Assembly: GCA_037974965.1 (NCBI GenBank)
Contig: JBBPFI010000002.1
Location: forward strand, 992,001-1,056,000
DNA from: Dacryopinax spathularia
Lineage: Eukaryota > Basidiomycota > Dacrymycetes > Dacrymycetales > Dacrymycetaceae
Direction of reading: 5' to 3'
DNA: 64,000 nucleotides
Shown here piece after piece: positions 13,490-57,398 of the stretch. The notes beneath the pieces are model-generated. The model had not been told where the DNA came from. It made no database searches and saw only the letters and a list, made by a program, of their open reading frames with translations. Positions within the stretch are counted from its first letter, which is position 1. Each line of letters starts with the position of its first letter. The translations under genes and the position numbers were made by a program.

Positions 13490-14194
13490 GTGGGGGCGCT
13501 ACTCGTGCTGGGACGCGTTCAGGGGGATGCGTGCGGTGGGGAGGCTTTGGGTCGTCGAGGAAGAGGGTGCCACGATGAGCGATCGGACGCGCTCAGTGGT
13601 ACACGACAAAACTGGCTCCAATGAGCTACGCCTGCCGCCTAACATGCACCACCCTCGCCGCACGTTGGTCGAGCTGAAGTAAGGAGGTAATGACAATATC
13701 GGACGGGCGGACAAAAACAAGACATGGACGGATGCATGGAGGGCAAGGCAACCCATTTTGCTTTATCTTTCGTATTACACACTTTTCTTGGACGGGATGT
13801 ACTTCTCGCGCTTGAGGAAGCGCGCTTGATCTGTCTTTATCTTTCTTTGTTATCTCTAGTTATTCGTAATCTAGTTTACAGTAATCACATTTTTGTTTAT
13901 CTCCAATGTTCAGCATCTTGCGGGCGGCCGGGACGAGGCAATTTCGGGACGAACGCGGGGATCTGAAAGACCGGGAAGTAGGAAATGTGGAACAGTGGCC
14001 CATCCCGGCTGTAGCTATTTATACCCCACATTCTTCGGACTAGCGATGTACTTTCGCTCGCTAAGTCTAATAATATTACATCGCTCAACCCTATACCCTT
14101 TGCCTTCGCTTTTTCTCCAATACCTCCAGCTCTCTACCGTGCAAGAGCCACCCACTCCCACCTCAACACCCCCAGCGCGCCCCCTCCCCTCCCC
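13490..14194. other. Intergenic region, no gene seen
   Basis: This lies between the stop codons of two convergent genes. I see only short unrelated reading frames, AT-richer sequence around 13,740-13,900 that may hold 3' UTR and polyadenylation signals, and pyrimidine-rich sequence before 14,195. Nothing supports a gene or a repeat. Confidence 0.5.
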
Positions 14195-38772: not shown

Positions 38773-39287
38773 GGAGAAGCTGGAGGTAATTGCCAAAATA
38801 CCCCGTTTCGGACGCGGAATTGCTACAATACCCCGTCCGGGCGCAGTTTGCCAGAGTACCCCACCCTTTTGGGGTCCTGGCTCTAAGCGCGACGCGGAAG
38901 TTGAACCCTGAGAGGCAAGTGTACAAAAAATATGCGATTTAGCATTACTTTCAAGTAGTAATATAGAGCTGTTCTTCCCGAAATTGGGGACAAGAGAGTC
39001 AGAACAAGAGAGTCAGAACGAGCACTTAAAAATGCCACAATTGTCTTGAGAGGACATTAAAGCTACCTGTATCTAGTAGGGAATTTCACCTGGTAAAAAG
39101 CGTAACAAAATTCATTTTACTCCATGTTTCCCCCTTGTAATTTGCCCAATTATAATAGTTACTTCTTCGCTGAGAGCTTTTGCAGGACCCCGAGTGTAGG
39201 GTATTCTGGCAAATTGCGCCCGTGCAGGGTATTGTAGCAACTCCGGACCCGAGACGGGGTATTCTGGCAATTACCTCGGAGAAGCTG
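38773..39287. mobile_element. MITE, 495 bp, with inverted repeats and 10-bp target duplication
   Basis: The element proper is 38783-39277. The left end GAGGTAATTGCC... and the inverted right end agree over roughly 90 bp with scattered differences, both including AATACCCCG-type repeats separated by about 30 bp. Flanks carry a perfect 10-bp direct repeat GGAGAAGCTG (38773-38782 and 39278-39287). An 8-11 bp duplication is typical of Mutator-like elements, so a MULE-derived MITE is the best guess. The interior is AT-rich and non-coding. Diverged ends make it older than the 32-kb element. It interrupts a frame starting at 38648, which may be part of a decayed gene. Confidence 0.8.
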
Positions 39288-39865
39288 AGAACATCCAGAT
39301 AACGTGAAGTTTTGTCCGACGCGTCGGACGTGTCCGGCCGGACGTGTCCTAGATAGCATCCGTATAGCCGGTCAAACCGGCAACACCCGTTTAGGGAGCA
39401 CTCCTATATATAGATAGGGTCCTTAAGCATTATTGTCATTAATTAATGATGAAATAATCTCCTCCTATGCACTATTGCTCAACTATTGCTCTGCGTGGTG
39501 GATTCCTCGTCCTCTCATTGCTACGACTGGCTCGAAGGCGTGTGTAGATGACTCGTCGCGTCAGGAAGACAACGCTTGAGTTGGTGAAGTCATGGCGTGT
39601 ACCTTAGACGCCGCCTACGAATCCCCCACAAACAAGTGTTTGCTTGTGTGGGATACCAAGGTGAGCATTAATAACATCAATACTCCAGACGGCGTTGTCT
39701 AATACCTGATACTGACTCTCCAGCCCAGAACAATCGACTTCGACAGACGCCCGAGGTCGCCGCGTGACCAGGATAGGGGTCAGCACAGGAAATCCGTCGA
39801 GCTCGTTCTTGCCACTTTCCACTTTGACGCGACGTCCTCCTCTTTCCTCTTACCACCACCACGCA
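39288..39865. other. Spacer upstream of gene A with a core of the dispersed repeat
   Basis: Contains an AT-rich tract with TATATATAGATAGG near 39,404 and one forward copy of the dispersed core CGAATCCCCCACAAAC (about 39,612-39,635). No other coding sequence is evident. The A/T tract could be a promoter feature for gene A but is about 460 bp upstream. Confidence 0.5.
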
Positions 39866-41057
39866 ATGGACCGCTTTCCTCGACTTATTCCTCGTCCCTC
39901 CCCTTCTAACAACAATACTACAAGGTCGACCGATGATCCTCTAATGACAACGCCTGTGCCAGTTCTCCCGACGGCGAACGATGGATTGACGAACGCTCGT
40001 CCCGCCTGGTGGCCGCTCAAGCTCAACATCGGCAAACGCCAGCATGCCATCCCGCCTGCGATCGAGCTCGGTACTCTCGGTGCTTCTGCCCGCTCAGTTG
40101 TCCCTCCTAACGACTCGTCTGCCGCCGAAAACGAGCCACTTCCGACTCCTCCCGTTTTCGTCAAACCTTGGCACCTCGACTTCAAGAAGTGGATGGACGA
40201 CCAGCTCGAGTATTGGGCGTCTGCGGGCATCCCTACGACAACCCTCCTCGCCAACGAGCTCGGTGCCGAAGCTGGCGGACCTCTTATCAGGGCAGAGCAG
40301 CAGGAGGATGGGGCGGACGAGAGGGTCGAGAGGGGGCAGAGGGTCGTCTCGAGGGCGAACGGCCTCTCTGGCGAGAGTACGTCTGACGGCGGACATGGAG
40401 AGGGCAGCGGGCATTCTCGTGAGCTGGAAGAGGGCCTACAGGTACGCCCAAAGACCGCCACGCCTTTGTGGGGGATTCGTAGGCGGCGTGGTGTCGTTGG
40501 TTCACCTGTACTGACGCATGGTACAGGATCCTGCGGAGGAAGCTCCTTCCGATCGGTACTACGACCAGACGAGGTCTCAACGCGAGGCCATGCTAGCTGC
40601 GGAGCGCCGTGCGGGTGGAGACGCCGGTATCTGGTTCGTCCAGAGCGGCTTCGCCTTGTTCGGGGCGATTTCTGCATCTGGCTGGGACATGTTCGCGAAG
40701 CTGCGCCTCCGGAGCGCTCGCATCACTCCCTGCTTGTACCAATCGGCAGTGGAGCCCTCCAGACACTCTCTGCGTGCGAGTGACGTCGGCTGGGGTATCC
40801 TGGGCTTCATCCTCTTCCTCTTTGAAGCCCCCTTTGTCGTCGTATGGTGCATTCTCTGCTTCATCTTCAAGTGGGTCGGTAAGCACTTCCGTTTCTGCGC
40901 GATTTGCGCCAGTAAGCTCGTTCTTTTCACTGCTGGAACGTCTCGCTAACTATCTACTACAGTCACCTACTTCGTACTCCTATTCGGCTTTGGCGTCGAC
41001 CCGGTCAAGCTGGCAATCGGAGTACTTAAGGCGGCGCCTGGGTTCTTCAAGGCTTAA
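39866..41057 (+). CDS. Gene A: unknown protein with C-terminal membrane segments
   Basis: I do not recognise this family. Three exons (39866-40441, 40527-40878, 40963-41057) give 340 residues. The first 190 are polar and Pro/Ser/Glu-rich, with a PAWWPLKLNIGKRQHA block and a WHLDFKKWMDDQLEYWASAG block that look structured. The C-terminal third has hydrophobic segments (GFALFGAISASGW, GWGILGFILFLFEAPFVVVW, TYFVLLFGFGV) and ends GVLKAAPGFFKA, so a membrane-anchored protein is likely. Intron 1 (40442-40526) carries one core of the dispersed repeat in reverse orientation. Two degraded copies of parts of this gene lie at about 48,660-48,976 and 49,270-49,320, so the gene has been duplicated and broken locally. 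Confidence 0.7.
40465..40487 (-). repeat. Single dispersed-repeat core within intron 1 of gene A
   Basis: Reverse-orientation core TTTGTGGGGGATTCGTAGGC lies fully inside the 85-nt intron. The related broken copy near 48.85 kb has core, one full unit and core at the same place, so the single core here may be what recombination left behind. Confidence 0.75.
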
Positions 41058-41248
41058 GTATAGTCAAAGTAGCTACGCTTTTTCTCCTCGTCCCTGTCTT
41101 TTTCATCACGCTCTCGATTCCCATACGATCCGCACTGCGATATCCTGACTCTAGCATCGTTGTTACTTGCTATCGTGGAATGAACATCGTGGCCCCCTTC
41201 TAATGACGCCCGCTCCCTTCGGCGCTTATTGCAAACCTCCATATTTCA

Positions 41249-42110
41249 GGATTCCCCACAAACATCAACAATCGCCTTTACGATAGACAGCATCTTATCT
41301 CCCCATCCCAGCCCGACACTGCCTCGAACACGCACGCATCCGGTCGCCTACGAATCCCACAAACATCAACAACGGCATTCGGGCTGGACAGGATGCTGTC
41401 ATCTTGTCCGAGCCTGAGACTGCTCCGACTGGCACGCATCCCATCGCCTACGAATCCCCCACCAACATCAATAACGGCCTTCCGGCTGGACAGGAAGCTG
41501 TCCTGTCCTCCTGGCCTCAGAGTGATCCGGCCGGCATGCATCTCCTCCCCTACGAATCCAGCACAAAACATCAAGAATGGCTTTCGAGCTGGACAAGATG
41601 CTGTTATCTCCTCACAGCCTGGGACCGCTAAGACCAGCACGCATCCTGTCGCCTACTAGACTTCGAGCTTGATAGGCTAGTCTCTCCTCGTGCCGCCTTG
41701 AGATCTCCCAGAGTGGCACTCTTCTCTTCGCCGTCAAATCCCCACGACAATCATCATTGACGTGCAAGGGGTACCAGACAGTCTTCTCTCCTCTCGGGCT
41801 CAAGCAGGTCAGACCTGCACTCCCCTCGTCGCCTAGGCATCCCACCCATACATCAACAGCGACTTTCGGGCTGGACAGTGTGCTGACCTCGCCTACCTGC
41901 TTGCGACTGCTCAGATCGACACGCATCCCGTCCCCTAGCAACGTTTGAGTTGGACATGCTACTCTCTCTCGTCGCAGCCTGAGACTACTGCTCAGACTGG
42001 CACGCATCCCGTCGCCCACGAATCCCACACAAACATCAACAACGCCGTTCGAGCTGGATAGGCCGCTGTCTCGCCTCCCAGTCTGAGACTATTCCTTCGC
42101 CTGGCGTTGT
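41249..42110 (+). repeat. Degenerate tandem array of the 102-bp dispersed repeat
   Basis: At least four diverged units start near 41,249, 41,346, 41,446 and 41,549, with two further degraded units near 41,828 and 42,012. Each begins with a core related to CGAATCCCCCACAAACATCA, followed by a CGGGCTGGACAGGATGCTGT-like segment. Divergence between units is much greater than in the array at 45.6-46.2 kb, so this is an older array. Confidence 0.85.
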
Positions 42111-42176
42111 GTACTAGAGCCCAATACAGATAATCATTATTACGAATACCCATCTAGGAATGCAGCACGGAACAAA

Positions 42177-44962
42177 CTAAGCAGTCTCATCAACCTCGTC
42201 ATTCTCATCATTAGCCTCATTATCAGCCTCAGCCCGCTCGATAGCAGCATTGTTTTTGAAGTACTTGCTTCTGGAAAGTCGACTACTACCGCGTGCGTCG
42301 ATCAACCCTTCGTAAACTGGATCGCTCCAGACTTCCGCTGGCCTGTCGCTGATGAAGTCGTCTTCTCCTTGAAAGAAATGTTGACGCATGTGTTCTTCGA
42401 GGTCGTCGAGGTCCCCCTCGCAGGCGGGACCTTGTTCGTCATAGTACTTAAAGGAAACTGGAATGCAACCCTTATGTTAGCGAGTGCACTACCGGTGTTC
42501 TTGACAAACTCACTGTTTCCGTAGACGCCATTGTTCCACATGCAGATACCGTTATGACGCCGGCAATGAGCACAACATTGTCTTTCCCATCGGAAGCACC
42601 AGCGATCTACGCCGGTTCGTTTCCTTTTCCAGACTCGGCATCCATGGCATGCCTCACGTTCATCAGCAATCTATCCAGAGTTAGAAAGGATCGTTGATGT
42701 AGAAGGGCGAGAAGACTCACAAAGACATTTCCCTCTGGAAGGCCCGTGATCTTGACGGTACCATGTAGTTTGATATCCTCCGGCGTCGGCCACAATGGAT
42801 ACTTCCAGGTTGGAACAGACCAGTACTGCGCCTTCAGAAGCAGATTTCGAGGGAATGGTTCGATCTTCTTTGACTTGGAAGAGCGCATGCGTTTGGGCTG
42901 GCGAGTATTGTCAAGCTCGTCGTGAACCAAAGAAAGGTTAAGTTCTCGGCGGCGAGCTACGGTATATTGTCCGTAGCGGTATTCCCATTCCTCGTCTCCC
43001 AAAGGAAATCTGCACGAGCCGAGAAGATGGGCACGAGTCAGCGGAACGGCAGGACGTTGAAGGTATCTGCCGTTCGGCAGGCGAAGATGTATGCGCTCCA
43101 TAATCGCCCGAGGTACTTTCCCGGGCTGGAAGGGATATCTCCACTTGTCGTAGAGGACTAACCACTCGAAAACGTTCGTGAAAATGTCCACTAAAATCAG
43201 AGCTTGCTCTACGGTGAAGGGACAATCAGTTTCTTGATGAACTCCCAAGGTTCCCTGTTAAGTTCAGTTCGTAGATGGAGGCAGCCTTGCAAGGATAACT
43301 CACTAGGGCTAAGGTGACTTGAGCAAACCATTTGGTGACCCTATCTTCTTTCAAGCTGTCCTTGAGCGGGGGCTTGGGCTTGTCTCTGTTGACAAACGCG
43401 AGCATACCCTCGATGAAGAAGCTCGAGTAATAGTCAAAGTTGAATGCCTGAATGGGTCTGTAGCCTTGGATGCGCTCGTACAGAGACTCCCAGTCAATGA
43501 GGCCCTGGAAACGCTCCTTGTTCGGGAATGGGTCGGGGAAGTTCTCGTACAGATGCCATGCCACCAGATAGACGACTTCTTCTTCGATGAGGCAGTCGCT
43601 TTCTTCCATGATGCTGCGGTCGTCTGGTTTTGGCATGGTATCCTGAGCTCGCAACCAGAGCGCTTCTTCCTGAAGACCGAGATCAATAGACGGACAGTGG
43701 GACATAGAAGGAATGAGGGATCCAGAAGGAAAGTGGGATGTAGATAGAAGGGGCTTACGATGCGTTCCGCTCTTTTTTCTAACATACTTTGGGCTACAGC
43801 GCGAGTAATCATAGAGTAGTCGCCGAACCAGGGAAGAGACAGAGCTCGTAGCCTGGCGATATGGTCTACTATCTCTTGTGGAGTCTGGCATGCCGCCAAG
43901 CGTTCGGCCCAATCCGGTTGCCCGACCTTTAAGACCTGCTTCACCTCGGCACGAAGAAAATTCTCTCGCGGCGAGTTAATTCGCTTGAAGCGATGTCCTG
44001 TCGGCCGTAGCGGGGGCCAATCTTGCTCTCTCATACGAAATCCTTCGGATTTCTTGAACAACGTTTCTTCGAGGTGCGTGAGATATCGATGGGTTATACG
44101 GGGTCTCGTACGATTCCATTCATCCCACCGGGACTAGTACTTGCTAAGCTTGGCAGGGACTGTACCTGGTGGGAAATCATACCTGAAATACAACCCCTGC
44201 CGCCCACCAGGCCTCGAAGTGTTCTTGTTCTTCCTGAGTCAGCCGTCGTGTGAAGGGACTAGGCGCTTCCACTAGTAATGCTTGAGCAAGAAGTATGAGA
44301 TTGTAGACCAGTTTCTCGTCATTGTGCTCAGCCAGTGTCTGGGGAAGCTCTAGATCCCCACCACTGGCCCATGCTTGCCAGGGAATACTGTCCCGCTCCT
44401 TCCTAGGTGCACCCCAGACGAGATCTGGGTGATCGGGCTCGTCAGTGCTTTCATCAGGGGATTCGTGCGCATCAGCCTCGTCGTCGAGGGAAATTGGCTT
44501 CGAAAGACGCATAGGAGGAAGAGCAGGCTGGTAGTCAGAAGTTCCTGTGGCCTTCGCAAAGCTCATGTATGCGCGGCGTCGCGTCTCTAACTCTTCCTTA
44601 CGTTGCTGCTCGCGTTTTTCCTGTTCAGTCATAGCCCGTCTTTCCTCATCTCGTCGTCGCTTTTGGCCAAGTAGCCTCACTGTTTCATCTGCCTCAGCTG
44701 CGGTGATCTGCTGTCTCAAGGCGATCGAGTCGGGCGAGGTTTCAGGCCGCAGATGAGCTTCAAGAATACGACGCCGTTCTCTCTTCGTGAACAAATTGGC
44801 CCATACATGCGGTATGCGTGGGAGTGTATCTTCCGCCGAAGCGGGTGACAAAGTTGCAGCTTCATCGGGAGAAGGCTCTAGATGCTCTTGGGTTGATTCG
44901 TCGGGCGTGCGCATTTCCTGGTTAGGGGGATACTTGATGGAATCCCACGGGACCGGTGGCAT
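42177..44962 (-). CDS. Gene B: large unknown protein with C-terminal Cys-rich module
   Basis: Not recognised. Six exons (44962-44183, 44133-43759, 43669-43304, 43254-42721, 42670-42514, 42457-42177) join in frame to 830 residues. The N-terminal 200 residues are charged, with a long Arg/Glu/Lys helix (REQQ, RRDEERRAMTEQEKREQQ). The middle has helical segments such as RITHRYLTHLEETLFKKSEG, DCLIEEEVVYLVAWHLYENF and YYSSFFIEGMLAFVNRDKP. Exon 5 encodes ACHGCRVWKRKRTGVDRWCF and ERQCCAHCRRHNGICMW, a likely zinc-binding cluster with pattern C-x2-C-x13-C-x6-CC-x2-C-x6-C. The C-terminus is acidic (ADNEANDENDEVDETA). Intron 2 is built largely from the 18-bp minisatellite unit. Whether this is a host gene or a relic of an unknown mobile element cannot be decided here. 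Confidence 0.7.
43670..43758 (-). repeat. 18-bp minisatellite units forming most of gene B intron 2
   Basis: On the coding strand the intron contains about four diverged units of the type TACATCCCACTTTCCTTC, directly after a GTAAGC donor and before the TTCAG acceptor. The same unit makes the intergenic arrays at 49.4 and 49.9 kb. Confidence 0.7.
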
Positions 44963-45388
44963 AGTGAACAGGACAAGTCTTGGATGATGGTATGAATGGA
45001 TCTAGAAGTCACTTGGCATGCAGAAGTGATGTAGGATGTAGAAGAAAACTACAATGGAGAGAGGGAGGATGGATGGATGGATGGACTAGGAAGGTGGTAG
45101 GTATGAGAAGAGAGAGAGAGGCGTATAGGTGACGCGACTGATATTGGTCACGTGAAAGAGGACCAAGATTGATTTTGAGCTAGCACAGCTTTGCGGATTC
45201 AAAGCCCCCTGTCATGCTCCACTCACCCCTTCTTCTCCTCTTTGCCATCAACGACCACCCATACCTGCACTACCCGTATCGTATAACAGCCTTCAAGAGA
45301 TTTCGCATAGTGCGTACCATTTGCACTTGCATGGTTTGCACCAGTGCTAACCAAGTGCATTGTTGATTCTGTAGTGTCTCATCTTATC
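44963..45388. other. Spacer between divergent genes B and D
   Basis: Holds the gene B promoter, purine-rich sequence with a short GGAT tetranucleotide tract near 45,070-45,084, and a run of TGCACTTGCATGGTTTGCAC-like direct repeats near 45,310-45,360. No coding sequence is visible. Confidence 0.5.
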
Positions 45389-46825
45389 ATGATGGACAGT
45401 GTCGACGCGCTTGCTGGCGCTTATGCAGCGCCGCCAGTCAGCGAGCCGATCCCAGGTATGCTGCAGTAAAACAGGTTTCGAAGCAGCCGTCTGAACACAT
45501 TAACAGAATTGAGCTTGAATCAGCACCTTGCTGATGCAGGTGCTAGGCGTCCCTGTTCCACCTACGAATCCCCCACAAACATCAACAGTGGCCTTCGGGC
45601 TGGACAGGATGCTGTTATCTTGTCCGAGCCTGAGACTGCTCCGACTGGCACGCATCCCGCCGCCTACGAATCCCCCACAAACATCAACAGTGGCCTTCGG
45701 GCTGGACAGGATGCTGTTATCTTGTCCGAGCCTGAGACTGCTCCGACTGGCACGCATCCCGCCGCCTACGAATCCCCCACAAACATCAACAGTGGCCTTC
45801 GGGCTGGACAGGATGCTGTTATCTTGTCCGAGCCTGAGACTGCTCCGACTGGCACGCATCCCGCCGCCTACGAATCCCCCACAAACATCAACAGTGGCCT
45901 TCGGGCTGGACAGGATGCTGTTATCTTGTCCGAGCCTGAGACTGCTCCGACTGGCACGCATCCCGCCGCCTACGAATCCCCCACAAACATCAACAGTGGC
46001 CTTCGGGCTGGACAGGATGCTGTTATCTTGTCCGAGCCTGAGACTGCTCACACTGGCACGCATCCCGCCGCCTACGAATCCCCCACAAACATCAACAGTG
46101 GCCTTCGGGCTGGACAGGATGCCGTCATCTTGTCCGAGCCTGAGACTGCTCACACTGGCACGCATCCCGCCGCCTACGAATCCCCCACAAAGCCGTACGC
46201 CCGCTCCCTCGCGGCCTCGGAGAGGGCAAATGCGCTTGACTTCGTCTATGACGAAGGGACCAGTGCGGCACCTCCCTACAGCCGGGATGGGATTGACGCT
46301 CGGCATGTGGTGGACTCGGGTCTCCTGGAGACCATCAGGCGTGCTGATGCGTATGCTGCACAGCTGCGCGCGATGGTTCCCACGTCTGCAGTGGAAGCAG
46401 CTGTTATCGAGGAGCGCCTCCGTGTACTGGCCATCTGGCGCCATGCGGTCATGAACAATGAAGAAACAGACATTCTTCAATTCTTCAATTCCCCCTCGGA
46501 CACTCCGCCTCCCTATCCCTACCAGGCAAATTGGGACTGGGTGCAGCTGCTCCTCTCGAGCATTCAAGTGAACCAGGTTCACGTCTTCCCAGCCGCCCCG
46601 CAGGGGACGAAGTCCGTTTCGGTTGGCTACGGCCCTCAGGTCTACACTGATGGGACCGCGGCACGCAAGTATCACGCCAGACGCGATGAAGATAACAGGC
46701 GCTATCGGGAAGAACGTGACCGGATGGGACAAGGAGGCATTTTTGCCCAGTGGTCGAATTGGTGGGGCAGCATGAAGACTGCATATACTCCTGCTCACAC
46801 TGCTATGCGGGTTTCGTGTAAGTAG
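45389..46825 (+). CDS. Gene D: unknown protein carrying six in-frame 34-residue repeats
   Basis: Two exons (45389-45455, 45507-46825) give about 461 residues. Exon 1 codes MMDSVDALAGAYAAPPVSEP; the GTATGC donor and AACAG acceptor are good. Residues about 41-250 are six near-identical 34-residue repeats (consensus block YESPTNINSGLRAGQDAVIL then SEPETAPTGTHPA), the translation of the 102-bp dispersed repeat. The unique C-terminal 210 residues include SLAASERANALDFVYDEGTS, VEAAVIEERLRVLAIWRHAV and YPYQANWDWVQLLLSS, look globular, and match no family I know. A GTAAGT at 46819 overlaps the stop region and could be a donor to a further exon. The repeat array may have invaded a working gene in frame, or the model may be wrong and part of the array spliced out. 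Confidence 0.6.
45561..46191 (+). repeat. Six-unit array of the 102-bp repeat, nearly identical units
   Basis: Period is exactly 102 bp (34 codons), with a partial seventh core at the 3' end. Units differ at only a few positions: CTCCGACTGG against CTCACACTGG in the last two, and TGTTAT against CGTCAT in one. Each unit has a core CGAATCCCCCACAAACATCA and a spacer holding an imperfect hairpin (GGACAGGAT pairing with ATCTTGTCC). The units contain no stop codon in three of the frames examined, on both strands. High identity means recent expansion or ongoing homogenisation. Confidence 0.95.
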
Positions 46826-48074
46826 CCCGGATCGCTGTCGTTGCTTGTACTGTAAGTAGAGTACTCTCTACATTCCTCACTCCTTGTGTGTACGTCTTCC
46901 CAAAGTAGGCTATCAGTTTCCTGTGCGTCATGTACTTCTACCGCCTGTAGGGCGTCCCGTCCTTCAAGCTACCTATCATGCGTCCCCATTCATGCGTATG
47001 CGCCTGGACTATGCAGCATTCCAGTCACTCCCGCTCGCCAATCCAACTGAAGGCTGAAACGTTGCGCCTGTTCGGGTGCACATAACATTCTTGAGACCTT
47101 GAACGTGAGCCTTTTCAGTAAAAGAGCGGTCCATGCTGTGATTCCCAACACGGTCGGTCGGTACACGCTGTCGCGAAGCAAACGGTAGATCGCGTCTCTC
47201 CACACTCGCAGGCCGAGGACACCTGGAGACACACAAGCAACGCCATATAGTCCAAGCACCGAACGCTCCCGGTGTCGACCGATACGGGCGCCGACCGATA
47301 CGGTCGCCGACTGATCCGTGGGCCAGCCGATCCGGGCGCCGGTATATTTGAGACCCGGCGCAATCGAGACTGACTGGTTTAGACAACCACAAAGGTTCAG
47401 GTCCGGTGTGTAGGAGCGCCACCAAGAATCACAGCCCACCAGTTGAATCACCAAGCAATTTGGCACCCCACCCGTATCCCATCCAGTCTACTCGAAGGAC
47501 AGCCAACGAATAAGCCGGCAGTCTGGATAACCTATGCGATGGTTGACCACAGCAATGAAGCTACACGGCTACGGGATATCATGTCACGTGTGGAATATGA
47601 AGGAAGGTGCGAAAGTGGCGTTCGACACGCGTCCCGTTGTTGTGATCTGCTACGCTGTCACCTTTTCACTACGATACTCAATCATCAGCTTAAAACCTTC
47701 TCAACTCCCAGCTGTATAGCTCGAATATCACAACCCGACAACCGAGGCCGGTGACCTGTGATTCAAGGAGAAAGACACGTCCACGGTGGGTTTTTGATGA
47801 CTGAGTAATTCGCCCTTTCTAACATATTATCAGCCCATTCCGCTTCGAAGGACTCCTGTGCTCATCTGCTCATGGAGGATCCGCCAGCGACGACGTGCTC
47901 GCCAGCACCCAAGCAGCCTTAAGCCTGGATGGAATTGCGTCCTGAGCAGTCGAAGGCTGGCTATGGCGTTTGTGGATGATTCGCAGGTGCCTCAGTGCGT
48001 AACTCTCTTGGCAGTCTCAAGCTGCGAAGGATAACAGAAAGGATAGCAGTACTCTGTTGAGCCCCGAGGACCAT
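46826..48074. other. Repeat-island spacer without a recognisable gene
   Basis: Only short frames are seen. A G/C-rich stretch at about 47,265-47,340 has repeated ACCGATACGG-like words. Nothing else supports a gene; decayed sequence is likely. Confidence 0.45.
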
Positions 48075-48201
48075 TGTTGAAGTTTGTGGGGGATTTGTAG
48101 GCGACGGGATGCGTGCCAGTCGGAGCAGTCTCAGGCTCGGACAAGATAACAGCATCCTGTCCAGCCCGAATGCCGTTGTTGATGTTTGTGGCGGATTCGT
48201 C
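48075..48201 (-). repeat. Dispersed repeat, reverse orientation: core, one unit, core
   Basis: A reverse core (GTTTGTGGGGGATTTGTAGG) is followed by a complete diverged spacer (GGACAAGATAACAGCATCCT) and a second core (GATGTTTGTGGCGGATTCGT). Further isolated core-like copies follow near 48,582-48,608 and 48,625-48,640. Confidence 0.85.
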
Positions 48202-48659
48202 CGTGCGGGTAAGCGTTCGCTAGCATCCATTGCGCACTGCAAGCTGACGAGCATCAAGCAGGTCATAGTCACTTTGTCGCCGCTCATCCCGAACTGTTGT
48301 GCTCTGTCCTAGGTGCACCCCAGACCACATTTGTCCTTGAAATCCAAATGTGTCCTAGCGTGGTTCTGAAAGAGCGAGTGAGATTCGGTCAGGGACAGAG
48401 ACACAGGTGCCTGGTTAAGCAACCCACAGAGTGAGTACGGCTCATGGTCGTTTCCCCAGAGATGACCGTTGACACTCGTACAGTAGACTAGCGCGAGTCG
48501 ACAGAGTTACCAACCAGTGTTCAAGCGCATGCAGGCGACACAGGCCTGCGCATTGGCTTGCATACATGCTATCTACCGCTTTTATGTTTGTGGGGCATTC
48601 GTAGGTGACGCGAAAGGACGATTAGCGCCCTACGAACCCCAGCCGTCGACTTCAAAGTC

Positions 48660-48976
48660 GACGGGGCGGTAATCTATCGAGGGGCAAGCAGCAGGAGGAA
48701 GGGGCGATGTGCGGGTGGAGAAGGAGAATTGGTTTGTGTTGAGGCCGGATGGACTCCCTGGCGAGAGTATGTCTTGGGGACAAGCACGGAGTAGTGGCTC
48801 ACCTTCTGAGCTGGAAGAGGGTGTGTATGGACGGCCAAGGATGGACTTGTGTTTGTGGGGGATTCGTAGGCGACGGGATGCGTGCCAGTGTGAGCAATCT
48901 CAGGCTTGGACAAGATAACAGCATCCTGTCCGGCCCGAAGGCTGTCCTTGATGTTTGTGGGGGATTCGTAGGCGGC
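48660..48976 (+). pseudogene. Broken duplicate of gene A (end of exon 1 plus intron 1)
   Basis: The sequence from AGCAGCAGGAGGA through CTGGCGAGAGTATGTCT and GAGCTGGAAGAGGG aligns with gene A exon 1 (about 40,300-40,440), with many substitutions and no conserved open frame. It is followed, as in gene A, by the reverse dispersed core (48849 onward), but here a whole 102-bp unit and a second core are present before sequence resembling the end of gene A intron 1 (GGCGGCGTAGTG). No other exon follows. Confidence 0.65.
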
Positions 48977-49155
48977 GTAGTGAGGCTCGGTTGGCTAGTG
49001 GATGCTGCAAGAGGCTACCGTATAGGTAACGGTCGTGGGTTGCAGCCAGGCTGGGCGCGGCGGAGCATAGTCCCTGGGGTAATCTGCCAATCGACTGAAG
49101 CTCCATCTCCAGAGAGTGCAAGACCTGCATATATCGGCAACCGGACAACAGATGC

Positions 49156-49320
49156 CTTAGTGAGTTATCCTTGTAACGCTTCCTGCAGACTCTAACTGAA
49201 CTGCAGTCCACGGCTGGCGTTCAAGGCTACTTGAGACTACACACAAGCCCGGACAGACTCCTGCGCAACGGGATGCGACAACCTTTGCCGATGTTAAGCT
49301 TCAGCGGACAACAGGCGATC
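49156..49320. pseudogene. Small fragments resembling gene B intron 3 and gene A exon 1
   Basis: 49156-49206 (TTAGTGAGTTATCCTTGTAA then ACTGAACTGCAG) resembles the gene B exon 3-intron 3 boundary on the other strand. 49270-49320 in reverse complement (CTTAACATCGGCAAAGG, then GCATCCC) resembles gene A exon 1 near 40,010-40,055, the LKLNIGK coding block. Both are short, so chance contributes to the uncertainty. Together with the fragment just upstream they suggest shuffled gene debris. Confidence 0.45.
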
Positions 49321-49360
49321 TCTCGTGATCTTGGCTCGGTTCGGCGATCCGCGTGTAACC

Positions 49361-49575
49361 GACTCCCTCTGCATCCCACTCTCCTTCTATATCCCACTCT
49401 CCCTCTGCATCTCACTCTCCTTCTATTTCCCACTCTCCCTCTGCATCCCACTCTCCCTCTATTTCCCACTCTCCCCCTGCATCCCACTCTGCCTCTATAT
49501 CCCGCTCTCCTTCTGTATCCCACTCTCCCTCTATATCTCACTCTCCTTCTGTATCCCACTCTCCTTCTGTAAGAC
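49361..49575 (+). repeat. 18-bp minisatellite array
   Basis: About twelve tandem units alternate CTCTGCATCCCACTCTCC and TTCTATATCCCACTCTCC with point differences. The unit is a multiple of three, so long but meaningless frames appear in several directions. This is the purest array of a unit that recurs elsewhere in the island. Confidence 0.92.
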
Positions 49576-49885
49576 TTCCGCTTCCTTCTACATCCGACAC
49601 TCCTTCTACATGCTAGGCTCCTTCGGTATCCGACACCTCTTGAGCCATCCATTGACAACGCGCTTCATTATTCGCTGGTATCCTCGTTGGCGCACGTCCG
49701 CTCTTAGTCTCTTGACCGTTCCAATATACTCTACGCATTCCTCACTTATCACCCCGCGTCTGTATTCCAACGTGCCTTCTCTGCTTCATCTGCCAAGGGC
49801 TTGGCTTGTTTATTTTTCACAATCTACATTCCTGGTTTCTGCGCACGTCAACCCTCTACATGCCATTCTTGCTACATCCCGTTTT

Positions 49886-49998
49886 GCTTTTATATCCCTC
49901 GTTCCTTCTACATCCCTCATTCCTTCTACATCCCTCATTCCTTCTACATTCCTCATTCCTTCTACATCACCCCATCGTTGTACATCCCTCACTTCCCT
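49886..49998 (+). repeat. Second 18-bp minisatellite array
   Basis: About six units of the type CCTTCTACATCCCTCATT, clearly related to the array at 49.4 kb. Translation gives a YIPHSF hexapeptide repeat that I regard as non-coding. Confidence 0.9.
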
Positions 49999-50178
49999 TT
50001 TCACATATTGCCGCTTGCTAGCCCTTTCTCAAGGCTCGGCTGCCTGCGGGACTTGATATTTAATGACGGACAGGCTTGTCATATCCCAGTCAGTACATCC
50101 ATTGTTACTGGAGGGTACTCCGCTAACATAAGGGTTATAGCCAAGTCTGGATGGACCCTTTCGATACTCGCGCTCCTG

Positions 50179-51099
50179 CAAATCCCCCACAAACATCAAC
50201 AGTTCCAGAAGCCTTTCACACTGCATTCCTGTGCGTATACGTCCACGTCGCCTACGAATCCCCTACAAACATCAATACTGACTTTTATCAAGCCTCGCAG
50301 GCTACATCTGCCATCTAGGACCCATTCGCCTACGGGGCCGTCTCACAGCTCAGCAACGGCAGGAGTGTCCCTCACCACACCTGTCCCGTCTACGAATCCT
50401 CCACAAACATCATACATCACTTCGCTCTTCCTGCTCTCAGGCTTGCCCATGGCCGGATCACTATCTCGACGACGTTGTAGCATTGAAATTGGGCTCTGCA
50501 AGCTCGCAACTGCTGAGCCTCTTGGTCATGTCGAAAGCACGTATGCGCCCAGTCTTTCAGCACAAGCATATCGTGATGAAGCCCGCCGTCGGCGCCCCGC
50601 CTTACATTGTTCATGGCACCGCTCGAATCAAGTGCACTTTTTACGTCCTAACACCTTCCAACCAAATGACGAACAACAGGAGGGCAGTGGTATCTCCAGC
50701 TGCGCAATCGTAAGTCCAAGTTATGTTACTCGCCATGCGTCTGGAATGTCCTGAAAGGGTACCAACAGTGAATCCGCCGCACGCGCATACTCCACAATCA
50801 CAAGGGAATGTTCAAGATGTGCAGTACGACTCACTGCAAGGCACTGTTCAACTGTCGGTCTGGATTAACGCACTGGGACAAAGTACGAAAACCCCACAAA
50901 CATCAAGATCTCCTCGTCTTCTTCGCTGTGACAGGACGATGGGTAACCCCAGTGCTCAGCCAGGAACGAGACGCCTTGCCTGCCTATCTACCACTCAAAC
51001 GCTAGACCTGCTGGCTCGTCTCTGCCGTACGTTCGGGGCTTTGAATAGTCCTATGGTCTGCAGAGTCCATCACCTACGAATCACCCACAAACATCAACG
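50179..51099 (+). repeat. Five scattered cores of the dispersed repeat
   Basis: Cores occur at about 50,179-50,202, 50,249-50,276, 50,389-50,413, 50,884-50,906 and 51,071-51,099, all forward and each a variant of CCCACAAACATCAA with or without CTACGAAT in front. Sequence between them is not a clean 102-bp unit. No gene is recognisable in the region 50.0-51.5 kb. Confidence 0.75.
50820..50960 (+). repeat. Longer dispersed repeat, one copy of an inverted pair
   Basis: About 140 bp (GACTCACTGCA, GGCACTGTTCAAC, CGGTCTG, AAAGTACGAA, a repeat core, then TGACAGGACGATG) match the reverse complement of 54466-54612 at roughly 70-75% by eye. The core is therefore embedded in a larger repeat in these two places. 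Confidence 0.7.
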
Positions 51100-51600
51100 C
51101 ATGCTCGCCTGTGGCCATCACGCCTGATCAACCTGGACATTGCTTGTGCATGCGAGAGCTCTGCAGTGTTCAAGGTCAAGACACGGGCCTCAGCTATCTC
51201 TTGCACCTACTCGGAGGACATCGATCGATATGGTTTGGGACTTGCGCCTCGGTACAGAAGAGAAAAGCAAGGCGTTAGACTTACTGTCAGGGCGCCTTGC
51301 TTATGGCTTCCTTCGAATGGACAACTTTGTACAACTTTCATCCGCAGACAATGTAAGAAGCAACTCAGGAGGCATCCGAGAGCTGCGAACCCATTCGGCG
51401 CAGAGAAGAGCAATATCGGGCGCTCAGCGAATTCGAGGTAACACGCATTCGCCAGGCCATGCATTCGTCCGCGCCTCAATTCAACAGGCCCTCTTCCCTA
51501 CCGGCCGCCATTAGGATCGAGCCCCGCTCTCGCCGGACCGAGTACGAGCAGCCATTGAGATATGTTGTACCTGGTCTCGGCGGTCGCCTCAGATGACCGG

Positions 51601-51712
51601 TCCTCAAATCTGTCGGTGCCCTAATCGGTTGGCCTCCCCTAGCCACCGCCTCCCTAATCTGTCGGCGTCCTAATCTGTCGGCTCCCTAATCTGTCGGCTG
51701 CCTAATGTGTTG
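51601..51712 (+). repeat. Short interspersed CCTAATCTGTCGG repeats
   Basis: At least five variants of a CTAATCTGTCGG word occur within about 110 bp with spacing of 14-17 bp at the 3' end. It lies about 210 bp before gene C, so it may be a promoter-proximal repeat or simple decay of a minisatellite. Confidence 0.6.
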
Positions 51713-51923
51713 ACTTCTGCTCCTATGGGCCTTTAAGCAATAGTTAGAGGGTAAATGCGTATTACAGAGCTACAAAACCCTAATCAACATGTGGCCCGTG
51801 CAATATTTGATGGAGTCCCTAGAATTTGATGAGCCACGCCTTTATTTTTGTTGTTGTCTCGCGTCTTTGTGTTGTTGTCTCGCGTCTTTGTCCTTTATTG
51901 GCATTTGTCTATGGCACTATCCG

Positions 51924-54006
51924 ATGGACACTTCCTTTGAACCTCCGCCGCCTTCAGTATGGACAGCCAAGGCCGAATGCCCAGGGGACGTTCGCAAGGT
52001 CCTGGATTTCTGGAACTGGGAGGGATTTAATTCGAACGTATGCCTGACGTGTCGTTTGGCTTGCATGCCATATGTCTCCTACAATCGCCGAGCGCAGCAG
52101 CCTAAGAACTGGGGAAGGGTGTGTGTGCGGGTGCGTCGCGAATGTTCCCCTCATACACAAGTACTTATCCAATGTGTTAGTGCCATGATCCCGGACACTT
52201 TGATGCATCGTTCGCATTCGTGACGCCACATGTCGAACCAGATTTCATGGGCGCTCTGGAGATGGAGCTTCAGGCATGGTCGATTGCCTCTGGGAATACG
52301 ATCCGCCCGAGCCCAGCCTCCAGTCCGACGAAGCCAGCGACAACCCAAAAGTCCCAGTCGAGCAAACCATCTCTTCTTCCGCGAAAGGTCAAATTGGCGT
52401 GTCCAGGCTGCCATAAGCATGGCAATGCGCAGTGTCTACACACACTGTGTAGGACATGCTGTCGAATTCGGCAATCCAAAGCTTCATACAATTGCCCTGC
52501 CCATCGACCGACAACGAGCGACTTCGACGTCCGGATCAAACCTGAACCAAAGCAACCAATCGAGATCATCGAGCTCGAGAGCGACTGTGATGTCCCGGCT
52601 CCTTCCGATTCGCAGCGTGGGCCTGGCTTGTTCAAAATCGAGTCGCAGCCACCTCGCGCTTTCCAAGGACCATCTGCAGGAAGGAACCCCCGACCACTCG
52701 GGCGACCAACTCCTGAAGTTTACAGACAAGCCCGGAAAGACGCCTGCGCTGAGAACGAGCGACTAAAGCTACAGACAGAAGAAGCTCGTGCCAGAGAGGA
52801 AGAAGTTGCTCATCAATTCACGTTGGTGGTACTGACTGAGGTATGTATGATATAGTCCGCGAGTGAGCCCCGCTCACCGTACTCCAGGATGAAGCATGTT
52901 CCATTCCCGGCATTCTCGCCAAGAAGAGCGCCAGCGGCTTAATGACAAGAATCAGCGAATGGGGAGACCATGTATCGAAGTGGCTGAAGAGCAAGATTGG
53001 CCAAGAATACTGCGCTCTTGAGTTGTTTAATGCGGAAAGCGGGCGTTGGGAGCTATACGGAAATGATGTGCTGCGGGCTATTCAAAAGGGCGAGAGATTG
53101 TTATGCCGTCTCCCTGGTGTCAAGGCGGACCTTCCGCATGTTCAGGAAGAAACATCGCAAGTGATGTATCCCTCCTCAATCCGAGATTCGCCGCGTCGCT
53201 CCACCCATCAGGCTTCGCCGCGAAAGACACCCGGGCGGAACAAGCTTTCCCTGCGTATCCACACCAGTCCGACATTGCTCCTGAGGACAGCTCCATGTCG
53301 CGGCGAAGGTGCCAAGGGTGCAAGCTTGTCGGATGAGACTCGCGTACCGAAGGAGAGTGGGATACATCAGGAGAGTGGGATAGGGAAAGTGAGAGGGATA
53401 CAGCGAGAGAGTGCGGTCCGAAGGGATCAGGGCCAAGGCGATGTGGATGATGCGCAGAAACGCAAGCGCCTGTCATCAAGCGGCTCTTCACCAAGCCTAC
53501 CCACTATCGACGAGGTCTTTGCGGATGCGGTCATCCTTTCCTCTTCATCTGAGTGTTCGATCGTCTGGCATCCAAAAGAGAAGATTGAGAAGAAGGAGAT
53601 TGAGAAGGAGAAGAAAGAGAGGAAAACAAAATGGCCTGGCGAACTGTCGTTCGGCGAAGTCGTCGCCTCGATGAACAAGGTTCTTCAGCTGATGAACGAA
53701 GAAGGGATGGATCTCGAATCAGCACTGTTGTCGGTCATGAAAATCCGCGTTCCTCGCTCCACTTGGTATGATCAAAGGAAGCATTATCTATTCGCTCCAG
53801 AGGCACTCAAAGCGACATACAAGGCCACTCCTTCTCGATCTTGGGCGGCTTTTCGCGATGACTTGAAGGAGACCGAGGCACAGGATGGAACAGGCACGTC
53901 CACATCAGCAAAGAAGGCCGTCAAATCATGCGCAAAGGTGTCTGGGCTGTTGAAGGATGATGTGAAGACGAAGGAGAGTCGGAAGCGGAAGAAGCAAAGG
54001 CTCTAA
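51924..54006 (+). CDS. Gene C: GRF-like zinc-finger protein with second Cys cluster
   Basis: Three exons (51924-52130, 52181-52840, 52888-54006) give 661 residues. Exon 1 has a GRF-type finger, CLTCRLACMPYVSYNRR then PKNWGRVCVR, completed across intron 1 by CHDPGHFDASF; that join (GTGCGT donor, GTTAG acceptor) is in frame. Residues about 125-165 hold a second cluster, CPGCHKHGNAQCLHTLCRTC followed by C and a final CPAH. Then come EVYRQARKDACAENERLKLQ and a coiled region. The C-terminal half is basic and disordered, with a short segment (ESGIHQESGIGK) coded by the 18-bp minisatellite unit, a Lys/Glu helix, and a compact SFGEVVASMNKVLQLMNEEG block with RSTWYDQRKHYLF. Nucleic-acid binding is a reasonable inference. 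Such proteins are common and variable in mushroom genomes, often in repeat-rich regions. Confidence 0.7.
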
Positions 54007-54710
54007 GTGTGCCGATGCATTGAGGATGATGTCTTGCCGTATCGTTGTTTTTCCTGCCTTGGGCAGATCCACGCTCGTTGATTTGTCTGCTTGAATTGTC
54101 CATCGCCATCTCCATTGAAGATGTGTTCCCTTCCCAATCCTTTGTTCCTTGTGCATGTACTCCTTCATCTTCATGTGCGCATCACGCTTAAGCTAACTAT
54201 CCGTACTTATCTTATGCTAATCATCTCGCTTTCACTGTATACGATCCCACCGCGCGATTGGGCTCGTGCTTCACACCAAGCAACTTCTCAGTCCCCCCTC
54301 CGCCAATGGCATCCATGTAAAATGGACGCTGATGTTTGTGGGGTATTCGTCGGCTACATCGGAGCTCTTCCAGATCCCATGATACTACTCATTGTCATAA
54401 GGATGCGGCAGGTGGTGACAGGAAGCTTAGTGGTCCAAGGATCGTTTCAGGTGAGCGGTTCCATTTATAACTCAGCACCAACCCAACGCATCGTCCTGTC
54501 AGGTGAAGCAGACGAGCAGATGTTGATGTTTGTGGGGTATTCGTACTTCGACTCATTGCCCTTAATTCAGACCGGTGGTTGAACAGTGCCATGCAGTGAG
54601 TCTTACTGGACACCTTGATCACTGCCTTGTGATTGTTATGGATTCGCAAGTGACTATTCCATACAGGGCTTCCTCAAAGACGGTACTAAGAACAAATGAT
54701 GATAACAGAG
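54007..54710. other. Spacer between gene C and the KDZ element, with two repeat cores
   Basis: Two reverse-orientation cores of the dispersed repeat lie at about 54,329-54,352 and 54,520-54,545 (GATGTTTGTGGGGTATTCGT). The second is inside the 54466-54612 copy of the longer repeat. No coding sequence is apparent. Confidence 0.7.
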
Positions 54711-56961
54711 CTATTCCAGAACAGACGAAGGAATGATATGAGGAGATTGACCGCGCCGGCGCAGGTCTTCCACAACGCAACGATTATGTACTTTGATAGC
54801 CTCGTCAAAGAAGAACTCGAACTGTACTGGCCCCATTTCCCGTACAATCGCGTAGAAATTTCTCATCCAGGCATTGATTTGCTCGCACTTGGACGAATTG
54901 AAAGTCCACACCTTCCTTTCTTCGTCGAAAAGTTCGCGATAGGCGGAGGCGTTGCAATGATACCCGCAGTACCAGTCGTTCTCGGTGTGCTTGCTCTTAA
55001 AGTGGAAGACATCCACAACCAATGCGGTATCTTTGAAGAACTCCTGCAGACGCGGCCGCTCGTGGATGTACTTGTGCAGCTGACAATTATTGTCGTAGAA
55101 TAAGACGTCGGGCAGAGAGGCAGGTGTAGGAAAGACGGTCTGTAGAAAAGCCTGATTCAGAAGTAAGCATGTAAAGGGGGGACGGCAGAGAGCAATGCAG
55201 ACCGCGACCGACTCCAGAGCTTCAGATCCATAGAATGTGCCCCGAGCCAGGATGACTCCACAAGGCCGCACAACAAGCTGCTCGTTGTGAGTGCGTCTTC
55301 TATTGAACCGGGCCTTCATTTTCTTGGACGATATCGCGGAGGGTTCATCGACTGGAAGCGCCTTAATCTGATCCCCATTCATCTCGACTTCGCCTTCTAT
55401 ATCCGACCCTCCTTCTACATCTGCTCCTTCGGCAACAGGGTCACCTCGTAGATATGCATGCGTTCGATCAAGGCGCCTCTTCAAGAGCTGAAACGATTGG
55501 GATTCAGACCGATATTTGGCCTCAAACGAGGCGTGCATGATGTCGTCGCATGTCTGGTAACCCGGTCGGATGGGCCTTGTGCACCGATCTACGCAGCACA
55601 CAGATTCGAGATGGATATGCTGCAGACAATACCGGGCCCGGTTGCTAACGAGCGGGTTGCTGCAATTGTGCTGGGCACAGCATGGCCGATTGATGGCAAC
55701 CCCATCGGTCACAGCGCAAGAAAGCATGTCTGGGCCAAATATTAGGTCGCCACAAGATGAGAAAAGTGAAATGCACCTACGTTCTTCTCCATTGCGATCG
55801 AAGAACTTGCGACACGTATCGCAAGCATGGGCCCAATGTTCTTGCCCGCGCTGTGCGATGTACTCATTCCTCTCCAGCATAGCCTGGGCAAGTCGCTCAG
55901 CCTGTGAACTACACCCAGAATGGGGAAGTCGAAGCACAGAGCCCTGCTCATGATGGTGTAGAAGGAGCGAGTACAAGTAAAAGAGGTCAGACAGGTATTC
56001 GCTCCGCAGGAGGGGTGCTTGATATGGACCCTTTGCAGGCGAAGTGGTTCTCGCCAAGGTCGTATTGTAGATGGTGGCATTCGTACTGAAAGATGAGCTA
56101 ACAGAAGGTGAGCGCGATTTGGCCGGAGAGTGGGATACAGAGGGAGACGCGCGTACTGTGAGAAGATCGTGAGGACTCTGAACAAATCGCAGAGCTTAGC
56201 TTCAAAGAAGAGGTGTTTTTCGGACTGAACAACAGTAGGAATTCCAGAATAATAGACGCGGTATTGTTTCCCATCGACGCCCGGCTGGCACGCGTAGTTT
56301 AGGAATTCCAGAATAATAGACGCGGTATTGTTTCCCATCGACGCCCGGCTGGCACGCGTAGTTTAGATGATACGTTGACAGACAGTTCAAGCATCGGAGG
56401 GAGGTAGCGATAACCGAAAACGCTCCTCGATCAAGAGTGTACAATGTGCCTCGAAACCTGCGCGGATCGTGCAAGCGGGCACAGCGACCGCGGGCGACGA
56501 GAAAGGGACACAGCAGATATGTACAGACGCGAGTAGGCGGATAGAACTCTTCTCTGCCTATAGAAGGTGTAAGGGATAGAGAAGGAGAGTGGGGATGCAG
56601 GTTGCGTACCGAGTTCGAAGCTTTGAGAGTACTCGGCAAAGAGGCGGAAATCGTCTACGAGAGGAGTTGTGACAGCGGTCACATCCTTAGCAGGATCCCA
56701 GATCGCCTCACGAAAAACCGTCCAGAGAGCGAAAACTTGTCCGTGGCTAAGACTGAGTGCGACCGATAGGAAAGACGCGACTGAGTTCGGCAGATCAGTC
56801 GGCGGGCCGGCCCGCCCAGAGAGAGTAGTATCCTGTTGCCACGAGATTCGCGATTGCAGGCGACGAGCAGCGGTGATGAAATCCAGCGCTTGCTGAACGG
56901 AAAGATGACCAATCGAGGGCTGTAGACGCTTCAACGCCTTGTAGAGATCCGTTAGCTGCAT
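54711..56961 (-). mobile_element. KDZ-type DNA transposon, transposase gene with CxC5/CxC6-like modules
   Basis: Kyakuja-Dileera-Zisupton transposase, cut-and-paste class. Exons run about 56961-56610, 56557-56157 and 56097-54711, with two likely short introns inside the last. The N-terminal part (SLRCLNCLSTYHLNYAC, YYSGIPTVVQSEKHLFFEAK) resembles the CxC5-type module. ACDTCRKFF, AVTDGVAINRPCC, HNCSNPLVSNRARYC and CCVDRC form a CxC6-type cluster. The catalytic region carries RRRTHNEQL, CGVILARGTFYGSEA, DVLFYDNNC, DVFHFKSKHTEND, FNSSKCEQINAWMR and REMGPVQFEFFFDEA. Exon 2 contains a 64-bp tandem duplication, not a multiple of three, that breaks the frame, so this copy is probably inactive. I did not find terminal inverted repeats or a target duplication. 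Introns contain pieces of the 18-bp minisatellite. Confidence 0.88.
56237..56364 (-). repeat. 64-bp perfect tandem duplication inside the KDZ transposase
   Basis: Copies at 56237-56300 and 56301-56364 appear identical. Removing one copy in thought restores the expected exon phase (337 nt against 401), showing that the duplication came after the element was functional. Identity of the copies suggests a recent event. Confidence 0.92.
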
Positions 56962-57398
56962 ATTGTCGGAATACAGCGAGCGCGGGATATAGAAGGTGAG
57001 TGAGTTGCAGGGGTCTCAGCAGCGCGGGTGCTGACGCGATGGTTAGGGCACAGTCATTAAGCTGTATGCCTAAGTTAAGGTAAACCCTTATCGTATTTTC
57101 GGGCAACCGGTGTGTGGCTGTACTGAGCCATAGCCGGTGTCCGAGAGTCCGGCGCGCCGGACAGAAAGCTCCCGTACAAACCTGCACGGAAGCTGGATGT
57201 ACTGGAGAAGCTGTGGCGCGGAGGCAACGTTGGGCAAAAAGAGTCGCGACGTATAGCATTGTTAGGTGCAAGGGTTCTCCAGTCGACCGCTTCTTGCAAA
57301 GACATTCTGTCTGGTGTTTGGGGAATTCCCTCAACTCTGCTCGCTTGTCTCTACAACTTCAATGGCTGCCACTCCTCCATAGTTCTCGCCAGAACGAA

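Follow-up and report, generated by a model that had tools for sequence, protein, structure and literature searches.

Repeats dispersed over 15 kb of the Dacryopinax spathularia genome lie inside a CxC6-type DNA transposon and may be group-specific recognition sites

Introduction

A stretch of 64,000 nucleotides from the basidiomycete Dacryopinax spathularia (GenBank assembly GCA_037974965.1, contig JBBPFI010000002.1) carries, over about 15 kb, many copies of a short sequence in both orientations. This stretch, called the window here, is C2:992001-1056000 in an assembly of 29.2 Mb and 24 contigs, which we number C1, C2 and so on. The copies were originally predicted to form a dispersed family of 102-bp units whose core is better conserved than its spacer. 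What are these repeats, and why is the core kept? We report that they are internal parts of one large DNA transposon with a CxC6 cysteine cluster gene, and that they probably are cis-acting recognition sites scattered through the mainly noncoding parts of this 17-18 kb CxC6-type element.

Results

The repeats are parts of a 17,918-bp transposon

The core query CTACGAATCCCCCACAAACA gave 23 matches with up to three mismatches in the window, located between 39615 and 54546 (15 on the forward and eight on the reverse strand), and none in 100 dinucleotide shuffles, which confirms that the repeat family is real. The predicted arrays were both recovered with a period of 102 bp, a fresh one at 45561-46191 (6.2 copies, 99% matches) and an old degenerate one at 41306-41656 (3.4 copies, 74% matches). 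Both core-unit-core blocks in reverse orientation, at 48.08 and 48.85 kb, are likewise present and are approximately 88-93% complementary to the fresh units. That the core occurs nowhere else in the window holds at this threshold but not at up to five mismatches, where two weak matches (11226 and 26549) appear outside the transposon.

The copies are real but not free-standing, since every one of them lies inside one DNA transposon of 17,918 bp (39287-57204). Further core copies were found at C1:2184-2199 kb and C17:124-139 kb, in two elements of 17,407 bp (C1) and 17,203 bp (C17) that are 99.3-99.7% identical across a block with sharp limits on both sides. The 204-bp difference in length corresponds to two 102-bp units. 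These elements are flanked by their own perfect 8-bp duplications, GTCACCTC and CGGTCTGT; a segmental duplication or an assembly overlap was ruled out because the identity stops at both ends and the 8-bp duplications differ. Alignment of the window to the ends of these two copies set the limits of the window element at 39287 and 57204, and a perfect 8-bp target duplication was thereby read in all three copies. The terminal inverted repeats are imperfect, with 15 of 20 terminal bases matching in the window element and 12 of 20 in C1. Having defined ends and a target site duplication, the element is a DNA transposon of the cut-and-paste type. It is collinear with the C1 element gene by gene (for the genes see Table 1): exon pieces of genes B and D share 42-68% protein identity, pieces of the transposase gene 63-75%, and gene C, repeat included, 31%.

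The 21-bp right end was found at 16 places in the genome with up to two mismatches and at 27 with three, versus three for the reversed control. Right ends outside the studied copies (C3:2007709, C8:914596, C8:953935, C17:792445, C4:596195 and C5:29934) perhaps mark shorter or non-autonomous elements. At C14:104-133 kb several matches to family genes lie within 30 kb of one another, possibly as a result of nested insertions. A centromere or centromeric satellite was ruled out as the source of the repeats, as the arrays are short and lie inside mobile elements, and C4, C14 and C17 each carry more than one element.

The core, and not the spacer, is conserved

For a conservation profile we used the isolated cores, 15 from the window element and 17 from the C1 element. 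Arrays 1 and 2 were left out, as were a match with five mismatches in the window element (355, reverse) and one in the C1 element (14746, reverse) that was seen only in the scan with the C1-type core. The core spans about 27 bp and reads approximately CGYCGCCTACGAATCCCCCACAAACATCAA in the window element. The alignment is rich in information from about -4 to +23 and carries almost none beyond these limits, save for scattered single positions of up to 0.7 bit. All 15 isolated window cores score 21-28 of 28; for 13 of them the next 74 positions match no better than random segments do (41-53 of 74; random mean 0.61, sd 0.09), and the two that retain the spacer both belong to core-unit-core blocks. 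In six units tested from the old array the core scores 21-26 of 28 and the spacer 50-69 of 74. The predicted difference in conservation between core and spacer is thus borne out, and the isolated cores share no flanks.

The spacer had also been described as containing a hairpin. It does fold in the fresh unit (z -2.48), but it decays in old copies: among 11 unit copies none of the 17 pairs had changed on both sides, and pairing was not above that of shuffles. The hairpin was therefore rejected as a functional part. The C1 spacer also folds (z -4.66) with different stems, and some general structural role of the spacers retains a small chance. Our data support the core as the conserved part, and neither the spacer nor the hairpin.

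Cores follow a common layout and avoid the right end

With up to five mismatches to the window core, 29 matches were obtained in the window element and 27 in the C1 element, and none in three single-base shuffles of the window element. Both elements show the same order. A forward core approximately 310-330 bp from the left end is followed by a reverse core in the gene A intron, arrays 1 and 2 in forward orientation (the second in gene C) and a block of reverse cores; gene D then has forward cores on its upstream side and reverse cores on its downstream side. Conserved neighbours anchor the first two positions, and order alone the others, the intergenic DNA being unalignable. No isolated core of the window element lies in a coding exon (0 of 15), though by approximate gene limits about 53% of it is coding; this bias has a p of approximately 1e-5 under independence of the sites, an assumption that their clustering violates. 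In the groups of elements looked at, the cores nearest gene D were in forward blocks upstream and reverse blocks downstream. Farther from gene D, both strands carry cores in the C6 and C14:480 kb elements. The downstream cores of the C12/C4 group are weak, with four and six mismatches, and no recognisable core was seen in the 4-kb pieces examined of the C3 and C14:130 kb copies.

Short repeated subterminal motifs near both ends are a feature of the Ac/Ds and En/Spm transposons. By analogy, the cores might be sites at which the transposase assembles a transposition complex, an explanation that we consider unlikely. As in those systems, a motif is repeated in both orientations within a DNA transposon; it is specific to each element group, and the transposase gene has a cysteine cluster. 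Here, however, the cores are spread over the interior, and with up to five mismatches none was found within 2.6 kb of the right end of the window element or within 2.5 kb of that of the C1 element, so that the two ends are not both marked. The cores are by the same token no terminal region of a transposon. Furthermore, the two termini of the window element share a palindrome, GTCCGRCGCGYCGGAC, that differs from the core, though the C1 element has no perfect counterpart of it at its ends. On account of the core-free right part and the different palindrome, end recognition is the less likely function.

A role of the core as a binding site or in recombination and spread had both been proposed, and binding is the reading that fits best. 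Recombination or spread found no support, as the isolated cores share no flanks, arrays change by whole units like tandem repeats, and what moves is the whole 17-18 kb element with its 8-bp target duplications. Decayed second copies of a part of gene A are present in the window at 48701-48990 (versus 40311-40500) and in the C1 element at 8816-9058 and 10397-10507; the window paralogue has the core-unit-core at 48.85 kb where the gene A intron has one core (40.46 kb). Such gain or loss of units in paralogous segments is explained by tandem exchange; neither a recombination site nor a crypton-like insertion of 102-bp circles was supported.

Each group of elements has its own version of the core

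Genome-wide searches with core patterns, controlled by the reversed patterns, revealed seven groups of elements with six motif types and a variant, which differ by anything from two changed bases to being barely alignable. Copy limits were judged by gene matches, except for the window, C1 and C17 elements. The C1-type core had 90 matches with up to three mismatches, 84 in copies of the family and six elsewhere (two for the reversed control), and all 32 matches with up to one mismatch fell in C1 and C17. For the C12/C4 type, 38 of 40 matches were in family copies, 31 of them in the C12 and C4:1.09 Mb copies (control two); at up to two mismatches these two copies held 26 of 27. The C6/C14/C15 type had 104 matches, and all 100 among the matches listed were in the C6, C14 and C15 copies, while the C5/C17 type matched only its own two copies (23 of 23; control zero for both types). 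The motifs of a group are concentrated in its own noncoding parts, often in tandem and in one orientation, with the exception of array 2, which lies in the frame of gene C. Isolated cores are nearer to the consensus of their own element in 12 of 15 cases in the window and 16 of 17 in C1; none is nearer to the other consensus, the rest being ties (three and one). Two diagnostic positions, chosen post hoc from the alignment, separate the elements with Fisher values of 3e-7 and 6e-6.

Recent sisters differ by whole array units, C1 and C17 in array 2, and C12 and C4 in array 1 and the forward block at the mismatch limit used. The repeats could thus be minisatellite units homogenised, without any function, by slippage, unequal exchange and gene conversion in a young element. 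Besides the whole-unit changes (204 bp between C1 and C17; array 1 and forward block in C12/C4), this would account for the occurrence of both 102-bp and 18-bp minisatellites in coding and noncoding parts. Homogenised tracts would, however, bring the spacer along, and the isolated cores are alike over approximately 27 bp only, yet keep their group-specific bases. With so short a shared stretch and unrelated flanks, gene conversion explains this poorly. We rate homogenisation without function slightly below the transposase sites in probability; selection shared across sites, exerted by a binding protein of drifting specificity, would explain the group-specific bases better. Taken together, the layout of the cores and their group versions suggest a private tag that a protein of the element recognises.

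Array 2 is read in frame by gene C as a 34-residue repeat (YESPTN...), and this frame is also open in C1 and C17. Its spacing is 102 bp in five copies from three groups (window, C1, C17, C4:1095713-1096242 and C12:176994-177523). The spacing of the noncoding array 1 varies, being mostly 90 in C12 and 92, 102 and 83 in C1, as would be expected if the frame had to be kept in the coding array 2 alone. One could therefore regard the repeat as primarily a coding minisatellite of gene C with noncoding copies as debris. The open frame in three copies and the 102-bp spacing in the C12/C4 group favour this, but old noncoding copies keep the core above the spacer, and reverse cores lie in an intron and in intergenic blocks, which makes this origin improbable. 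Least probable of all is that a host factor recognises the core as a replication origin, insulator or point of nuclear anchoring, since one factor of fixed specificity does not account for six versions and a variant in one genome, each mainly in one group, even if the sites are short, orientation-blocked and mainly noncoding.

Sister copies differ mainly at CpG

CpG transitions were compared in the sister pairs C1/C17, C12/C4 and C14/C15. The C1 and C17 elements differ at 39 of 17,201 columns, 23 of which are CpG transitions, corresponding to a rate of 0.0100 at CpG versus 0.0005 elsewhere. In 4-kb pieces of other sister pairs an excess at CpG was evident in two of three; the third had four differences, none at CpG. 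Among the element copies compared, this excess fits cytosine methylation by the host. CpG changes near cores are not clearly fewer than elsewhere in the elements, whose CpG content is close to normal (0.93 and 0.92).

Genes and other repeats of the element

Table 1. Coordinates of the transposon and its features in the window
Feature	Position	Strand	Basis or remark
Whole transposon (17,918 bp)	39287..57204	+	C1/C17 comparison, perfect 8-bp target duplications
Left target site duplication GAGAAGCT	39279..39286	.	Read directly
Right target site duplication GAGAAGCT	57205..57212	.	Read directly
Left terminal inverted repeat	39287..39306	+	15/20 bases matching right end
Right terminal inverted repeat	57185..57204	-	
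Left subterminal palindrome GTCCGACGCGTCGGAC	39314..39329	.	Candidate transposase site, distinct from core
Right subterminal palindrome GTCCGGCGCGCCGGAC	57147..57162	.	
Isolated core near left end	39611..39638	+	329 bp from left end; C1 counterpart at 312 bp
Gene A, conserved part	40157..41057	+	Intron ~40441-40527; homology to C1 exons, splice sites by eye
Isolated core in gene A intron	40459..40486	-	C1 core at equal place and strand
Array 1, old degenerate 102-bp units	41239..42105	+	Between 3' ends of genes A and B
Gene B, several exons	42180..45001	-	Approximate limits; C1 comparison
Gene C	45390..46825	+	Start by eye; array 2 in frame
Array 2, six near-identical 102-bp units and seven cores	45558..46193	+	In gene C
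Six reverse cores	47967..48971	-	Including two core-unit-core blocks
18-bp minisatellite (CTCCTTCTGTATCCCACT type)	49363..49996	+	C1 element has one at matching rank in order
Five forward cores	50176..51093	+	Upstream of gene D
Gene D	51924..54006	+	Start by eye; zinc-cluster motif, disordered linker, C-terminal helical domain
Two reverse cores	54329..54550	-	Between gene D and transposase gene
Putative transposase gene	54711..56960	-	Start approximate; CxC6 cysteine cluster, Pfam PF18721

The product of the putative transposase gene matches the CxC6 profile PF18721 with an E value of 1.4e-21 (76.9 bits versus a cut-off of 27.5), and at least 80 matches to the gene were listed genome-wide. Pfam links this cysteine cluster to KDZ transposases. 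The element thus combines a KDZ-associated cysteine cluster with an 8-bp target duplication. The KDZ catalytic profile PF18758 has 52 matches in the genome, none of them inside the window, C1 or C17 elements; because it matches none of these three copies, we class the elements as CxC6-type and KDZ-associated rather than as KDZ. A gene content with CxC6 and many KDZ matches would fit a basidiomycete. An AlphaFold2 model, in which an RNase H-like catalytic fold was sought, failed with a mean pLDDT of 34.6. A perfect 64-bp tandem duplication is present at 56236-56366, within the transposase gene region.

Gene D encodes a candidate DNA-binding protein. A Foldseek search with its fold returned nothing significant, and VIA-align gave only weak matches to DNA-binding proteins. 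Its linker is encoded partly by an 18-bp repeat. This minisatellite, CTCCTTCTGTATCCCACT, occurs in the window at 53342-53422 and 56129 in addition to the tract in Table 1, and in the C1 element at 9493-9853 and 13587-13623. It is mostly confined to the element, which holds 14 of its 15 matches in the window, and its reverse strand encodes the KESGI/KERGM-like repeats of the gene D linker. Two more short arrays, of 16-bp units, are located at 47276-47341 and 51596-51714. For gene B, no Pfam match above the cut-off was obtained with the pieces searched.

Discussion

To explain these observations, we propose that a protein encoded by the element, most likely the product of gene D, binds its own version of the core along the element. 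Arrays would grow and shrink by unequal exchange or slippage and so add sites, and as spacers decay and cores are kept, isolated cores would be left behind. When the binding specificity drifts in a lineage, all its sites would shift with it, giving each group of elements a private motif. The likeliest benefit would be a self-specific control of chromatin or transcription, for example anti-silencing, rather than end recognition in transposition.

Among described systems, the nearest is that of the Arabidopsis VANDAL transposons and their anti-silencing proteins VANC (Hosaka et al., 2017, PMC5735166; Sasaki et al., 2023, PMC10398659). As Hosaka and co-workers describe it, these transposons carry arrays of a 9-base motif, in one orientation, in their introns and noncoding parts, and the motif multiplies by tandem repeats and varies by subfamily (PMC5735166). 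The D. spathularia elements likewise have a short, dense motif in one orientation that is mainly noncoding or intronic, tandem gain and loss of units, variants by subfamily and element proteins with tandem peptide repeats. They differ in that they belong to another kingdom and have a core of about 27 bp instead of 9 bp, and for them binding and hypomethylation would be predictions. The VANC domain DUF1985 gave no Pfam match in the gene pieces scanned, which covered part of the exons of genes A and B. The parallel would thus be one in the mode of working, with no sign of common ancestry. Tentatively, and at less than even odds, fungal CxC6 transposons may have evolved a VANC-like self-recognition independently, with at least six protein-motif pairs that would have diverged within this one genome and keep methylation off their own elements without cross-activation.

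Like KDZ transposons, the element has a transposase gene with a zinc-chelating cysteine cluster and 8-bp duplications, which are reported for Zisupton and KDZ1, versus 7-bp ones without inverted repeats for Kyakuja (PMC12730594, PMC12810828). Its imperfect terminal inverted repeats may correspond to those of Zisupton. The Cryptococcus KDZ1-3 elements are given as 9-11 kb with CxC1 (PMC12810828), compared with 17-18 kb and CxC6 here. Further differences are the unmatched PF18758, the internal motif arrays and the lack of a TET/JBP gene by profile in our elements. KDZ relatives are thought to counter silencing in a different manner, through TET/JBP genes that they carry (PMC12730594). We rejected such a demethylase cargo: PF12851 gave four weak matches in the genome, none over the cut-off and none in the elements, though very distant types would escape this profile.

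A CxC5/CxC6 insert in MSH4 of Pleurotus ostreatus offers another comparison. According to its description in PMC7641404, it is 6.8 kb long, had no KDZ transposon within the expected distance and was linked to Copia. It resembles our element in its multicopy CxC6-type open reading frame, and it contains short direct repeats and clustered microsatellites that differ from copy to copy (PMC7641404), but here the CxC6 frame belongs to an element that has ends and a target duplication of its own. Among the open-access titles and abstracts searched we found none describing group-specific internal motifs in KDZ or CxC6 elements. Large DNA transposons as such are already known; what would be new is a CxC6 type with dispersed, group-specific recognition motifs, whose function is inferred from sequence comparison.

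CxC6 genes, until now listed as KDZ-associated or, in the Pleurotus account, linked to Copia (PMC7641404), are now placed in an element with defined ends and a target duplication. For VANC, its authors called it interesting whether the host machinery involved is conserved in other kingdoms (PMC5735166). It is an open question how a transposon can evade silencing and yet leave its relatives silent. To our knowledge, VANC in Arabidopsis is the only case of sequence-specific anti-silencing. Since a single fungal genome here contains six divergent versions of the motif together with recent sister copies and a candidate for the binding protein, the proposal is directly testable. If the tentative VANC-like reading is right, related transposons in this genome would no longer cross-activate one another.

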